Assembly (NCBI GenBank): GCA_902585415.1
Contig: CACIDN010000001.1
Span: forward strand, 46,001-110,000
Direction of reading: 5' to 3'
DNA from: an uncultured Pelagibacteraceae bacterium
GTDB lineage: Bacteria > Pseudomonadota > Alphaproteobacteria > Pelagibacterales > Pelagibacteraceae
Length of the DNA: 64,000 nucleotides
The notes below the pieces were generated by a model. It made no database searches. It had not been told where the DNA came from and saw only the letters and a program-made list of their open reading frames with translations. A program made the translations under genes and the position numbers. This document shows, piece after piece, positions 16,418-22,712 of the stretch (positions within the stretch are counted from its first letter, which is position 1; each line of letters begins with the position of its first letter).

Positions 16418-17687
16418 ATTAAACGCAAATAGTAAAAATTTTCAAAAGGATCTAATTAAAAAAATAAATAAGAGGTCAGTTTTTTCTGATAAGGATTATA
16501 ATGTTGCAAAAAAAATCATTTCAGATGTAAAAAAAAATGGTGATAAAGCAGTACTTAAATATGAAAAAAAATTTAATAAAAATAACAAGCTTAAAACAAA
16601 TAATGACAATTTAATTAGAAATATTAAAAAATTAAATCCAAAAGTAAAAGATTCTATAGATTTCGCATTCCAAAGAATTCTATCATTTCATAAAAACCAA
16701 AAGTCAAAAGACATTAAATTTTCAGATAGATTAAATAACAGAATTGATTACAAGTACAAACCGTTGAATTCAGTTGGAATTTATATACCTGGTGGCAATG
16801 CAAGTTTTCCTTCTACAGTTTTAATGAATGCAATTCCCGCTATGTTGGCAGGTGTTAAGAGAATTGTTATTGCTAATCCCGTAAGAGGTAAAGATCAAAG
16901 TGCTGCTGTTTTATACGCTGCTAAAAAGTGTGGTGTAAAAGAAATTTATAGAGTAGGCGGAGCACAAGCTATAGCCGCTCTTACTTACGGAACAAAAACA
17001 ATCAAACGAGTAGATAAAATAGTTGGACCAGGCAATATTTATGTCGCAGCAGCGAAAAAAATAGTTTTTGGTGAAGTTGGCATTGATATGATTGCTGGTC
17101 CATCGGAGATAACAGTCGTTGCAGATAAAACCTCAAATATAAAATGGGTTGCAGCTGACTTAATTGGTCAAGCAGAACACGATATTAATGCTCAATGCAT
17201 CCTTATTTCAAAGAATAAAGAATTAATTGATAAAGTTCAAAAAGAATTAGTAATACAGTTACAAAGTTTGCCACGTAAAAAAATTGCATTAGGTAGCTTA
17301 AAAAAAAATGGTTTATTGATTTTTGCAAATTCAGATAAAAAAATTTCTGATACTATAAACATTATAGCACCAGAACACTTAGAACTTAGTTTAGATAAAT
17401 ATAAATCTATTTTAAAAAATATAAAAAACGCAGGCTCGATATGTACTGGGAAATATTCAGCGATGGCTGTGACAGATTATTGTGCGGGTAGCAATCATAC
17501 TTTACCTACACACTCCTCAGCAAAATTTTTCAGCGGGCTATCTGTATTTGATTTTTTTAAAAGAATTTCTTATATAAATTTATCAAAAAAGGGTATTGAA
17601 ACTATTGGTGAAAAAGTTATAAATCTTGCAACTTATGAAGGTTTAGATGGACACGCTAAATCAGTTAAATTAAGAATAGGAGAATAA
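16407..17687 (+). CDS. hisD: Histidinol dehydrogenase
   Basis: SVGIYIPGGNASFPSTVLMNAIPA, VDKIVGPGNIYVAAAKK, DMIAGPSEITVVAD, DYCAGSNHTLPT. Confidence 0.96.
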   Translation: MIYRLNANSKNFQKDLIKKINKRSVFSDKDYNVAKKIISDVKKNGDKAVLKYEKKFNKNNKLKTNNDNLIRNIKKLNPKVKDSIDFAFQRILSFHKNQKSKDIKFSDRLNNRIDYKYKPLNSVGIYIPGGNASFPSTVLMNAIPAMLAGVKRIVIANPVRGKDQSAAVLYAAKKCGVKEIYRVGGAQAIAALTYGTKTIKRVDKIVGPGNIYVAAAKKIVFGEVGIDMIAGPSEITVVADKTSNIKWVAADLIGQAEHDINAQCILISKNKELIDKVQKELVIQLQSLPRKKIALGSLKKNGLLIFANSDKKISDTINIIAPEHLELSLDKYKSILKNIKNAGSICTGKYSAMAVTDYCAGSNHTLPTHSSAKFFSGLSVFDFFKRISYINLSKKGIETIGEKVINLATYEGLDGHAKSVKLRIGE

Positions 17688-17690
17688 TAT

Positions 17691-17906
17691 TTGACAAAAC
17701 AAGACTCTTTAGAATTTAAAGGAAAAGTTATTGATCTTTTACCAAATGCAATGTTTAGAGTAAAGTTGGAGAACAACCATATTGTAACTGCTCACACCGC
17801 AGGAAAGTTAAGAAAAAATAGAATTCGGGTTTTGCAAGGAGATAATGTTACAGTAGAAGTCACCCCTTATGATTTAACAAAAGGGCGTATCATATTTAGA
17901 TTTTAA
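17691..17906 (+). CDS. infA: Translation initiation factor IF-1 (TTG start)
   Basis: [60 protein letters not shown]. Confidence 0.95.
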
Positions 17907-17907
17907 T

Positions 17908-17982
17908 GGCCTTGTAGCTCAGTAGTAGAGCAGTACCCTGAAAAGGTATGTGTCGTAAGTGCGATTCTTACCAAGGCCACCA
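17908..17982 (+). tRNA. tRNA-Phe (anticodon GAA), CCA encoded
   Basis: GGCCTTG TA GCTC AGTAGTA GAGC A GTACC CTGAAAA GGTAT GTGTC GTAAG TGCGATT CTTAC CAAGGCC A CCA. Confidence 0.9.
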
Positions 17983-18089
17983 CCAAAGTGACATTAAGTC
18001 AATTTAAATTACTTGCATTAAATTTAGAAATCTAATAACAACCTTTTAGCTTAATTAAGCTTAAGTATAACAAACAAAGAAAGAGTAAA

Positions 18090-18299
18090 ATGAGTCTAAA
18101 AGGTAAAGTAAAGTGGTTTAATGGAAAAAAAGGTTATGGTTTCATTGAACGAGAAGACAAAGAAAAAGATGTATTCGTACATGCTTCAGCTGTAAGAGAA
18201 GCAGGTTTAAGATTCTTAAACGAAGGTGACGAGCTTACATTTGAAGTTGAAGACGGAGATAAAGGTCCTGCCGCAGTAAAACTGCAAAAAACCTCTTAA
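18090..18299 (+). CDS. Cold-shock domain protein (CspA family)
   Basis: [37 protein letters not shown]-like ending. Confidence 0.95.
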
Positions 18300-18317
18300 T
18301 TCTAATTCATCAAATTA

Positions 18318-18366
18318 ATTGTATAGGGATAAAAAAGCAAATGAGCTTCTAATATTCCTATACAAT
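18318..18366 (+). other. Imperfect hairpin downstream of the csp gene
   Basis: ATTGTATAGGGAT ... ATTCCTATACAAT with an inner AAGC-aaatga-GCTT hairpin; ATCAAAT/ATTTGAT flanks could extend it. Confidence 0.5.
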
Positions 18367-18407
18367 CAACTGTTGATTTATTTGATTAAACTGTTAATAA
18401 AATCGCA

Positions 18408-18482
18408 ATGATTAAGATTGTTAAAAACTTAGTATTATCTCACAGACACCATTTTCATGCTGGCTGCACGCTAGCTATTTAA
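18408..18482 (+). CDS. Putative His-rich leader peptide upstream of tRNA-His/hisS/hisZ/hisG
   Basis: ATG ATT AAG ATT GTT AAA AAC TTA GTA TTA TCT CAC AGA CAC CAT TTT CAT GCT GGC TGC ACG CTA GCT ATT TAA = MIKIVKNLVLSHRHHFHAGCTLAI*; hairpin GCTGGC-TGCAC-GCTAGC at 18459-18475 follows the His codons. Confidence 0.5.
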   Translation: MIKIVKNLVLSHRHHFHAGCTLAI

Positions 18483-18533
18483 TCATTATATAAATTTAAA
18501 AATATCCACAATTAGTATAAAACAAAGATAGGA

Positions 18534-18610
18534 GCACGGGTAGCTCAGTTGGTTAGAGCAGCGGTTTGTGGAACCGAAGGTCGACAGTTCGAATCTGTCC
18601 CCGTGTACCA
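18534..18610 (+). tRNA. tRNA-His (anticodon GTG), CCA encoded
   Basis: GCACGGG TA GCTC AGTTGGTTA GAGC A GCGGT TTGTGGA ACCGA AGGTC GACAG TTCGAAT CTGTC CCCGTGT A CCA. Confidence 0.95.
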
Positions 18611-18614
18611 AAAA

Positions 18615-19949
18615 ATGGAAAAGAAAAAAAAAATAAAACCTCTAAAAGAATTACCTTCAGGTTTTGAAGATAGAAAAGAAAAAGAACTTTTAATCAGAGA
18701 CTTCATAATTTTAAAGATTAAAGATGTAATGGTTAAGTATGGCTTTCAATATCTTGAAACACCAAGTTTTGAGTATACTGAAAGTATAGGTAAATTTTTA
18801 CCTGATAAAGAAAGACCTGGAGAAGGTGTATTTTCTTTTAAAGACGAAAACAAGTGGTTGTCTTTACGTTATGATTTAACAGCACCCTTGGCGAGATATG
18901 TTGCGAAAAATTTTAATGAAATACCAAAACCTTTTAAACGCTATCAATTAGGAACCGTATGGAGGAATGAAAAACCTGGACCAGGAAGATATAGAGAGTT
19001 TCTTCAATTCGATGCTGATTACGTAGGTACAAAAAATTTACAAGCAGATGCAGAACTATGTGTAATGATATCAGAAATCTTAGAAAATTGTGGCTTAACT
19101 AAAGATGATTACACAGTCAAAATATCATCTAGGACAATCACTGATGAATTATTTAAAAAACTAAAAATTCAGTCAAAGGAAAAAATTTTTATAATTCTTC
19201 GAGCTTTAGATAAAATAGATAGGTTAGGGTGGATAGAAGTAAAAAAATTGTTGGGTGAAGGTAGAAAAGATAAATCTGGAGATTATACAAAAGGAGCAGA
19301 ATTAGGCGATGATCAAATAAAAGCTATTGAAAGCTCTTTGAATGTTAACTCACCTCAGAGCGAGGATTTAAAACAAATAATAAAAATCTTTAGAGATTAT
19401 GAATTTGATAACTATAAGTTCGATCCTTCAGTAATAAGAGGTCTAGAGTACTACACAGGCCCAATATTTGAAGTTAATCTAAATTTCAGCGTAAAAAATT
19501 TAAAGGGACAAGTTATTCAATTTGGATCAATAGGTGGTGGAGGGAGATACGATAATTTAGTAAGCAATTTTGGCAATCTTGATTATCCGGCAACCGGCAT
19601 ATCAGTAGGTATAGATAGACTTGTGTTTGCACTGATGCAAAAAAAAGAATTTGATTTAAAAGTTGAGCGCCCTGTAATGATTAGTGTCTTTGATCAAAAT
19701 AATATGAAAAAATATATAGAAATACTTAAGAAACTAAGATCAGAAAATATCAGTTCAGAGATTTACCCTGGTGAGGGAAAAATAAAAAAGCAAATGGAAT
19801 ATGCTAATAGAATTAATTCTCCGTGTGTAATTTTTGCTGGCGAGGAAGAAATTAAAAACTCACAAATAAAAATAAAAGATCTTAAAACTGGGAAGGAAAC
19901 TAACATTAAAAATGAGAACATGGTCAATGAAATCAAAAAAATTATCTGA
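18615..19949 (+). CDS. hisS: Histidyl-tRNA synthetase
   Basis: LPSGFEDRKEKELLIRDFI; YDLTAPLARYVA; FLQFDADYVG; RGLEYYTGPIFEV. The ORF-track start at 18549 lies inside tRNA-His; ATG 18615 is preferred. Confidence 0.95.
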   Translation: MEKKKKIKPLKELPSGFEDRKEKELLIRDFIILKIKDVMVKYGFQYLETPSFEYTESIGKFLPDKERPGEGVFSFKDENKWLSLRYDLTAPLARYVAKNFNEIPKPFKRYQLGTVWRNEKPGPGRYREFLQFDADYVGTKNLQADAELCVMISEILENCGLTKDDYTVKISSRTITDELFKKLKIQSKEKIFIILRALDKIDRLGWIEVKKLLGEGRKDKSGDYTKGAELGDDQIKAIESSLNVNSPQSEDLKQIIKIFRDYEFDNYKFDPSVIRGLEYYTGPIFEVNLNFSVKNLKGQVIQFGSIGGGGRYDNLVSNFGNLDYPATGISVGIDRLVFALMQKKEFDLKVERPVMISVFDQNNMKKYIEILKKLRSENISSEIYPGEGKIKKQMEYANRINSPCVIFAGEEEIKNSQIKIKDLKTGKETNIKNENMVNEIKKII

Positions 19950-20979
19950 AAATATATTAAAGTCAATAAGATCAGAAGGTTTTAAGTATATTAATCTAGA
20001 TACAGTAATACAAACTAATCACATTGTTGAAAGATCTGGCGAATCATTTAGACGTTTCATTTTTTCTTTTAACGATCAGAAAGGTAATGAAATTTGTCTT
20101 AGACCAGACTTAACAATTGCATCATGCTTAAAATATTTACATGAGAAAAATAAAGTAGCCAAAAAAGTATTTTACAGTGGACAAGCTTTTAGAAAAACTC
20201 AAAAATTATCAGATAATATAATAAGAAATCAAATTGGTTTTGAAATTATTGGCTCAAACAAGGAAAAGTATGATGATAAAAAAATTATCAATACAGCTGT
20301 TAAATCATTATCGAAATTAAAATTTTCATCGGGTGTTTTGACCATTGGAAATATCGAAATATTTAAACTTCTATTGACTAAATTGGATATCCCTAAAAGA
20401 TGGAGATTGAGACTCCAAAGACATTTTTGGAGAGAAAAATATTTTAACGATTTATTAAAAAGACTAGAGACTAATTCTGACGTTGATCCAACTATTGTTG
20501 AAATAGATAAAAAAAAATATGAGGTAATGCTTAAACAAAAACAATCAAAAATTATTGCGGGGAGATCACTAAATGAGATTCTAAAGAGATTTAACGATAA
20601 AATAAATGATCCAAGAAGGCCTCGAAAAGGTAAAAATGTTGTAAAAATAATCAAAGAATTTCTAAAAATAGATTGTCCAATCAGTGAAGCATTTAAGAAA
20701 TTAAACCTTTTTTTTAAAAAATATAAAATTAATTTAAGAGTAGAAAAAAATTATTTTCCAATCTCTAAAAATAAATTTTCAAGATTAAATATAAAATATT
20801 CAGCTTCTTTTGGAAGGCAATTAGAATATTACACAGGTTTAGTCTTCAAAATTGATATTAAAATCAATTCAAATAAGATTAACATTATTAATGGTGGGAG
20901 ATACGATAACCTTATTAGCGATCTTGGATCGAATAAAAAAATACCAGCAGTTGGAGCAGCTATAAATTTAAATGATTAA
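19912..20979 (+). CDS. hisZ: ATP phosphoribosyltransferase regulatory subunit HisZ
   Basis: HisRS-like catalytic core (LRPDLTIASCLKYL, RQLEYYTGLVFKIDI, GGRYDNL) directly upstream of short hisG; ATG at 19912 or 19927. Confidence 0.88.
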   Translation: MRTWSMKSKKLSENILKSIRSEGFKYINLDTVIQTNHIVERSGESFRRFIFSFNDQKGNEICLRPDLTIASCLKYLHEKNKVAKKVFYSGQAFRKTQKLSDNIIRNQIGFEIIGSNKEKYDDKKIINTAVKSLSKLKFSSGVLTIGNIEIFKLLLTKLDIPKRWRLRLQRHFWREKYFNDLLKRLETNSDVDPTIVEIDKKKYEVMLKQKQSKIIAGRSLNEILKRFNDKINDPRRPRKGKNVVKIIKEFLKIDCPISEAFKKLNLFFKKYKINLRVEKNYFPISKNKFSRLNIKYSASFGRQLEYYTGLVFKIDIKINSNKINIINGGRYDNLISDLGSNKKIPAVGAAINLND

Positions 20980-21655
20980 TATCGGAATTCCCAGCAAAGG
21001 TAGATTAAGAAAAGATATATTGAAAATTTTTTCAAAAAATAGTTTACAACTTATATCTGAAAGAGGAGAAAGAGACTTGTTAGGGTCTGTCAAAGGATAT
21101 AAAAAAATAAACATTACTTATTTACACGCAAGAGAAATCGTTGAAAGATTAGGGGACGGAACTTTGGATATTGGTTTTTCAGGGTTTGATTTATTAAAAG
21201 AAAGTGCAATTAATGTGCAAAAAAAAATAGTAGTAAAACAAAAATATACTTTCGGTAAAGCCAATTTAGTAATTGCTATTCCCGATGATTGGATTGATGT
21301 TCAAACAATAGCTGATTTGGAAGAAATCGCATTTGAATTCAAAGAAAAAAAAAAAACTAGATTAAGAGTAGCAACAAAGTATCCAAATTTAACAACAAAT
21401 TTTATGTTTGAAAGAGGTGTTACACAATTTAAAATTGTAAAAAGTCTAGGTGCAACAGAAATATATCCATTCACAGGTTCTTCAGAAATTATAACGGATA
21501 TAACTTCTACAGGTGAAACTTTAAGAGCTAATAATTTAAGAATATTAAAAGACGGAGTGATGCTTAAATCTCAAGCATGTTTAATGATTTCCCAAAAAAG
21601 TCAAAAAAAGAGAGGTATTTTTAATATTATAAATAAACTTAATAAAATTGTATAG
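20972..21655 (+). CDS. hisG: ATP phosphoribosyltransferase, short form
   Basis: IGIPSKGRLRKDILKIF; RLRVATKYPNLTTNFMFERG; GATEIYPFTGSSEIITDITSTGETLRANNL. Confidence 0.94.
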   Translation: MINIGIPSKGRLRKDILKIFSKNSLQLISERGERDLLGSVKGYKKINITYLHAREIVERLGDGTLDIGFSGFDLLKESAINVQKKIVVKQKYTFGKANLVIAIPDDWIDVQTIADLEEIAFEFKEKKKTRLRVATKYPNLTTNFMFERGVTQFKIVKSLGATEIYPFTGSSEIITDITSTGETLRANNLRILKDGVMLKSQACLMISQKSQKKRGIFNIINKLNKIV

Positions 21656-21662
21656 TGTGAGC

Positions 21663-22712
21663 ATGGATTCGTTAATTATAATTTTAATTATTATCTTGCT
21701 TCTAGCTAACTTCTTAGCATTTGCACTTCTAATTAAGCGTAAACAACCTGAGCCAGTTAACAATGAACAAATTTTTAAAGACGAATTAAGTTCTTTAAAA
21801 AATACATTTAGCCTGTCTTTTGGGTCTATGAGCAAAGAAATAGCAAAAGATATGACCGGAGCTCTGACAAAAGTTGATGAAAAAGTATCAGTTTTTAATC
21901 AACAAGTAAGCGAGTTAAACAAAAGTCAAGATAACTTTAGTAGAATTTTGAGTGGAGTAAAATCATATGGAACTCTTGCGGAATTCGGATTAGGTGCACT
22001 TCTAAAAGATTTGTTACCAGCATCTCAATATATCGCAAATGCAAAAATGAAAGAGGATACTTCAGAAACAGTAGAGTTCGCTATTAAACTTCAAGATGTG
22101 ATGTTGCCAATTGATAGTCACTGGCCTGTTGAAAAATATAAAGCAATTGATGATGCATATAACGCCAATGACAAAGATGCACAAGCAGAGGCAAGGAAAG
22201 ATTTAGCATCAGCTTTTAGGTTAAAAGCTAAAACTGTTAACGCAAAATATATATCACCTCCAAAAAGTACAGATTTTGCAATTGTTTACGTTCCTACTGA
22301 GGGATTATTCTCAGAACTCTCTAGTTATAGAGACCCTAAAACTAAAGAGCTACTTTTACAGGAATTAAGAACTAAATATAAAGTTACAATTTCTGGCCCT
22401 AATACTTTATCTGCTTTATTACAATCCTATCATTTAGGATTTCAAACACTTAAAGTTCAGCAACATGCTACACAAATTTATGGTGATTTAAGAAATATAA
22501 GCTCAAGATTCGAAAAACATTTTGATGGAATAAAAGAACTTAGAAAAAAATTGGAACAAGCCATGCAAGTTACTGATAGTTTTGGAAGAGATGCAAGATC
22601 TATAATGAATACACTTAGGAATATTAAACATCCCGAACAAGTTGAAATAGTATCAAAAAATGAGAATGTTGAAAAATTAAATATACCAACCTCAAAACAA
22701 GCTAAAAATTAA
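21663..22712 (+). CDS. rmuC: DNA recombination protein RmuC family
   Basis: N-terminal TM, coiled coil, ESFALKLQD-like VEFAIKLQDVMLPIDSHWPVEKY, AIVYVPTEGLFSEL, ISGPNTLSALLQSYHLGFQTL. Confidence 0.9.
   Translation: MDSLIIILIIILLLANFLAFALLIKRKQPEPVNNEQIFKDELSSLKNTFSLSFGSMSKEIAKDMTGALTKVDEKVSVFNQQVSELNKSQDNFSRILSGVKSYGTLAEFGLGALLKDLLPASQYIANAKMKEDTSETVEFAIKLQDVMLPIDSHWPVEKYKAIDDAYNANDKDAQAEARKDLASAFRLKAKTVNAKYISPPKSTDFAIVYVPTEGLFSELSSYRDPKTKELLLQELRTKYKVTISGPNTLSALLQSYHLGFQTLKVQQHATQIYGDLRNISSRFEKHFDGIKELRKKLEQAMQVTDSFGRDARSIMNTLRNIKHPEQVEIVSKNENVEKLNIPTSKQAKN

Follow-up and report, generated by a model that had tools for sequence, protein, structure and literature searches.

The leader of the enterobacterial his operon (Rfam His_leader, RF00514) is an attenuator that combines a short His-rich leader ORF with a series of alternative stems. 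Among related systems, the rhizobial trpL leader of S. meliloti (rnTrpL/peTrpL) gives a transcript that starts at the AUG of the leader ORF, that is, a leaderless mRNA (PMC7298713, PMC10117765). For the uORFC-8-2 motif, located upstream of cysS in Rhodobacterales, attenuation has been proposed (PMC8632094). A histidine leader peptide before hisS*/hisZ in Bacillus was found via premature intrinsic terminators, in a study that reported no similarity between leaders of Firmicutes and Proteobacteria (PMC2965389).

The SAR11 leader described here, denoted hisL, would belong to this known type of amino-acid leader-peptide attenuator; the SAR11 version is apparently undescribed, as far as Rfam and the open-access literature that we searched can tell. 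Like the enterobacterial leader, hisL is a short His-rich ORF just upstream of histidine genes and presumably senses charged tRNA-His. Unlike it, hisL has no Rfam match, is predicted to be leaderless, carries 2-6 spaced His codons and a single hairpin inside the ORF rather than a series of alternative stems, shows no consistent U tract, and has tRNA-His-hisS-hisZ-hisG as its presumed target. With rhizobial trpL it shares the alphaproteobacterial background and a short leader ORF whose AUG starts the transcript (in SAR11, by prediction), whereas trpL senses Trp, is depicted with a transcription terminator and is unrelated in sequence. The uORFC-8-2 motif likewise places a leader ORF with key codons before an aminoacyl-tRNA synthetase gene, but concerns Cys, has two stems, always ends in a 3' U run and is reported from one order. 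The Bacillus leader, also a His-codon ORF upstream of hisS-family genes, is a Firmicutes case. hisL meets two of the general criteria for an attenuator, namely a conserved short ORF with clustered codons of the pathway and a covarying RNA structure beside them.

A cmscan of positions 17500-21700 against Rfam (E up to 1) matched only two tRNAs, with no His_leader and no T-box. No SAR11 His leader is described in the open-access literature searched, although absence there is not proof. hisL would be hidden from a 2009 survey of SAR11 RNAs, because tRNA-bearing intergenic regions were omitted from its candidate table (PMC2704228, Table 1), and no mention of a leader was found in a study of SAR11 tRNA-His and HisRS (PMC3937112).

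The histidine locus of the window

In the window, by which we mean the whole 64,000-nt stretch of DNA analysed, the locus comprises the following features.

18373..18400, + strand: predicted promoter P1 (TTGATT, 16 nt, TG-T-TAATAA), with 7 nt between its end and the ATG; assigned from sequence and TTG position
18408..18482, + strand: hisL leader ORF, 24 codons plus TAA, predicted leaderless; assigned from order-wide conservation
18441..18458, + strand: His codon cluster CAC AGA CAC CAT TTT CAT; assigned from sequence and from CAC/CAT exchange at conserved positions
18459..18475, + strand: hairpin GCTGGC-TGCAC-GCTAGC, 6 bp with a 5-nt loop, immediately 3' of the last His codon and within the ORF
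18483..18533, + strand: AT-rich conserved spacer preceding tRNA-His; TAGTAT at 18513-18518 is a possible -10 box of a second promoter (inferred)
18534..18610, + strand: tRNA-His (GTG), A73; G-1 not encoded
18615..19949, + strand: hisS, starting 4 nt past the tRNA CCA without room for a Shine-Dalgarno sequence; Pfam HisRS match
19912..20979, + strand: hisZ, HisRS-like regulatory subunit of ATP phosphoribosyltransferase; second HisRS-like protein by Pfam
20972..21655, + strand: hisG, ATP phosphoribosyltransferase; Pfam HisG match

The leader ORF translates to MIKIVKNLVLSHRHHFHAGCTLAI, with His at four of the six codons of the cluster. Its hairpin has a folding energy of -8.9 kcal/mol, and the stop codon lies 4 nt 3' of it, so that the hairpin sits inside the ORF, past the His codons. 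From the end of the ORF to tRNA-His the gap is 51 nt; upstream of the leader lie hisD and a cold-shock gene (Pfam). No viral relatives of hisG were found. The original prediction had described the ORF, its four His codons, the hairpin, the gap before tRNA-His and the promoter pair TTGATT-16-TAATAA, all of which held as described; the one refinement is that the hairpin, although past the His codons, still belongs to the ORF.

Two side observations concern this layout in the family of the window (f1). In 110 of the 112 f1 loci with a tRNA found by ARAGORN, the hisS ATG lies 3-5 nt past the CCA of tRNA-His (18608-18617 in the window), and hisS would therefore be nearly leaderless once the tRNA 3' end is processed. 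Past the cold-shock gene, an inverted repeat (TTGTATAGG..CCTATACAA; 18318-18367 in the window) is conserved in f1 loci without a U tract, and reads CGGGACA..TGTCCCG in other clades.

Conservation of the leader and its hairpin

For f1, the sequence upstream of hisS was read at 80 hisS loci from GTDB genomes and at further loci from other genomes. This catalogue holds 127 leaders, the window ORF among them, all in the same place, immediately before tRNA-His-hisS; many come from close relatives, and non-redundant subsets are used where stated. In 127/127 the frame runs open from the ATG past the His codons as far as the hairpin, with stops in the +1 frame at 124 loci and in the +2 frame at 102. 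The ATG was picked in frame with the His codons, and its independent support is the promoter position. N-terminus and length drift freely (MIKIVKNLVLSHRHHFHAG, MIENLKIINILNAKHHFAHAR, MLTRINIAISHTHSHRVHAK, MIIKKTLSTLRSHSHRMHAR, MNKNETNYRLNPGTLRLALRGTNRGVHAHFHAG), the ATG and the end of the last His being 39-93 nt apart. Each leader retains 2-6 His codons, a few loci going down to 2; the last adjoins the hairpin in nearly all loci and the first most often lies 14-18 nt from it. CAT and CAC are interchangeable and third positions are almost exclusively T or C, CAA accounting for just 3 of the CA-codons at two conserved His positions. At L004, with a loop one base shorter, and at L014, with a stop in the loop, the hairpin is kept and the C-terminal tail of the peptide is gone; thus, the tail is dispensable. 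One locus, L052, has lost the hairpin. The leader is retained although the HisS types span about 44-95% identity, the lower figure being measured against the window's HisS, and although the tRNA-His genes are very different.

Several further features of f1 loci were noted in passing. The leaders of L204-L218 are longer, at 33 aa, with an inner segment conserved in most (GTLRLALRGTNRGVHAHFHAG, up to the stop). Many genomes of the window's genus (L130, L133, L204-L218, L224-L243) have a very different tRNA-His (GCCCGGGTGGTGTAATGG, GCCGCCTTCGAATAATGG), and genomes with a divergent tRNA-His often carry a HisS only ~45% identical. ARAGORN missed the tRNA at 15 loci, some of which have a degenerate T arm (GTAGGAGCGTAACCTAC).

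At one and the same position, the f1 hairpin occurs with the arms GCTGGC/GCTAGC, GCTAGGC or GCTAAGC/GCTTAGC, GCAAGC/GCTTGC, ATAGCC/GGCTAT and ATGGCTG/CAGCTAT. In 12 equal-length sequences it is 100% paired, with 17 double-sided changes compared with 6.3 in shuffles and a covariation score of 0.77 compared with 0.35; slid versions score at most 0.16. This covariation supports the hairpin as a real structure at the RNA level. Four f1 hairpins have energies of -6.7 to -10.8 kcal/mol. The stop codon falls inside the hairpin in 31 of the 127 loci and 0-7 nt 3' of it in all others. A U tract is inconsistent across the 127 loci, which mostly have 2-5 U in the 8 nt past the hairpin, and it is this lack that makes intrinsic termination doubtful in f1; the window tail UAUUUAAU only just clears a permissive terminator scan (5 T in 8) and is not a U tract. 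Upstream of its leader, L130 has a GC-rich hairpin with a T9 run after it, and the lineage therefore seems capable of using canonical terminators.

Single-sequence folds gave no convincing alternative pairing or antiterminator with the spacer or tRNA in either f1 or f2, a second family of the order. A closing helix joining the start to the stop region, AUGAUUAA:UUAAUCAU, looked attractive in the window sequence, L026, L027 and L131 but was rejected, cognate partners not scoring significantly above mismatched ones (p ~0.075). Taken as a whole, the window leader has an unremarkable folding energy (z 0.44). Inspection by eye shows a further hairpin spanning the His codons in some clades (CACTC-TCACA-GAGTG, CATTC..GAATG, CACAC..GTGTG, GCAAAA..TTTTGC), but not in the window's.

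In f2, 29 counterparts precede hisS without tRNA-His in between; longer flanks, available for nine f2 loci, place tRNA-His >1.4 kb upstream in eight and show none in L121. These leaders are short, typically 11 codons, and of HHHYH type (MFKFKHHHYHI, MIVYTHHHIHI, MIKLLHHHYHI, each then ending in a stop). A covarying 9-bp stem starts right after the leader stop and is analogous to the f1 hairpin, with a different sequence and stem. The f2 5' end often folds on itself, the AUG pairing with the His codon CAU (AUGUUUA..UAAACAU), although weakly (~-3 kcal/mol). As side observations, 3' of the leader stem in L114-L122 a conserved CNACCCC(C) is followed by T-rich DNA, past which a second small inverted repeat precedes hisS (TAGTATC..GATACTA in L121). 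Outside these families, a criterion that detects 112 of the 127 f1 and all 29 f2 leaders found no His-rich ORF at 48 alphaproteobacterial hisS loci. No leaders were seen before ilvB, leuA or pheS in the window's genome, where the hit for trpE was cut off by the end of a contig.

Promoter position and predicted leaderless start

Of 54 non-redundant f1 upstream regions, 48 have the TTG of the -35 element at -36, -35 or -34 from the ATG; in f2 it is at -36 or -35 in seven of nine rows, the remaining two (L116, L117) being anchored on the wrong ATG. Because this position is fixed relative to the ATG, transcription is predicted to start at or next to the AUG, yielding a leaderless mRNA, as the original prediction had proposed; 5' ends remain unmapped. 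Scoring of E. coli-type promoter hexamers was set aside in favour of the anchored TTG histogram, as it was overall not above shuffles and failed in f2. In the conserved f1 spacer, a TAnnAT-like box stands at near-constant distance before tRNA-His, and a second promoter inferred from it could possibly bypass the leader. Separately, in L026-L031 an inverted repeat (TTGCAAAGTAA..TTACTTTGCAA) lies 5' of the leader ATG across the predicted promoter and is possibly an operator.

Proposed mechanism and alternatives

We consider it likely that hisL is a leaderless His leader peptide acting as a ribosome-mediated, His-tRNA-sensing attenuator of tRNA-His-hisS-hisZ-hisG. The evidence is comparative only, without RNA, protein or expression data: the conserved coding frame, the His codons, the covarying hairpin and the fixed promoter distance are shown, whereas translation, stalling and control of downstream expression are inferred, not measured. 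The alignment across SAR11 that the original prediction had called for, with frame, His codons and hairpin kept as the flanks drift, was passed by 127 f1 and 29 f2 loci. The f1 loci bear out its warning that the mechanism may not be classical U-tract termination. Its interpretation, that ribosomes stalling on the His codons could control the cluster, is supported but still rests on inference.

In the proposed mechanism, a ribosome would load at the RNA 5' end and translate toward the His codons, where a shortage of charged tRNA-His would make it stall. The last His codon touches the hairpin, so that stalling on this codon would put the ribosome over the 5' arm and hold the hairpin open. With His-tRNA plentiful, the ribosome would reach the stop in or next to the hairpin and leave, and the hairpin could form. 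Its state would set how much RNA polymerase or intact transcript enters the downstream genes, histidine shortage being expected to raise expression; whether it would act by termination, pausing, Rho or RNA decay is undecided. One weakness of this masking model is that, by standard footprint arithmetic, the hairpin would stay uncovered if the ribosome halted at the first His codon; the f2 stem would be covered by a ribosome sitting at the stop.

The same sensor may possibly work in the opposite geometry, the hairpin being an ON structure that forms upon stalling at the first His codon, is masked by a ribosome at the stop, and protects the RNA or prevents Rho-dependent termination. The usual spacing of first His codon and hairpin, past the usual footprint edge, fits this reading, as do a stop always within reach of the f1 hairpin, the f2 stem beginning right after the stop codon and the missing f1 U tract. 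Against it, the ON geometry does not need the last His codon to abut the hairpin as it does in nearly all f1 loci, and no known factor has been identified. On balance, the abutting His codon favours an OFF hairpin opened by the stalled ribosome in f1, whereas the f2 spacing is better suited to an ON hairpin.

It is unlikely that the leader's control is limited to a minor P1 transcript, or that the leader yields a small leaderless RNA, with tRNA-His and hisS expressed mainly from a second promoter in the AT-rich spacer. The box, its near-constant distance to tRNA-His and the conserved spacer speak for this, and in S. meliloti the trpL attenuator RNA and peptide function in trans (PMC7298713); however, there is no evident -35 element, and conservation of the His codons would be unexplained without a regulatory output. 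Less plausible still, and very improbable, is a non-coding structured RNA or DNA site with the His codons as by-product. The f1 hairpin is indeed conserved, overlaps the coding part and outlasts the C-terminal peptide in L004 and L014, but the frame is kept at every f1 locus with stops in the other frames, third positions are almost only T or C, and f2 has the same kind of His-rich frame despite its different sequence and stem. A chance His-rich ORF can be all but dismissed. One sequence by itself could arise by chance; yet the leader alone among 651 window ATG ORFs of 9-45 aa reaches 4 or more His in 8 codons, a single ORF with 4 or more His in 6 codons turned up in 20 random windows drawn from a first-order Markov model, and conservation of the leader across the order already refutes this reading.

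Returning to the preferred attenuator, a bolder reading, which we advance while leaning against it, is a minimal device that needs no refolding: a single hairpin lacking a U tract would be combined with a leaderless ORF that stops on or beside it, such that ribosome position alone would decide. Both the very tRNA being sensed and a hisS left near-leaderless by tRNA excision would then belong to the regulated unit.

SAR11 ranks among the most abundant kinds of cell on Earth, and its set of regulators is believed to be small. If the attenuator reading is true, leaderless leader-peptide attenuation would reach beyond the rhizobial trp case, and a conserved, translation-based His sensor in a streamlined genome would provide control of biosynthesis without regulatory proteins.
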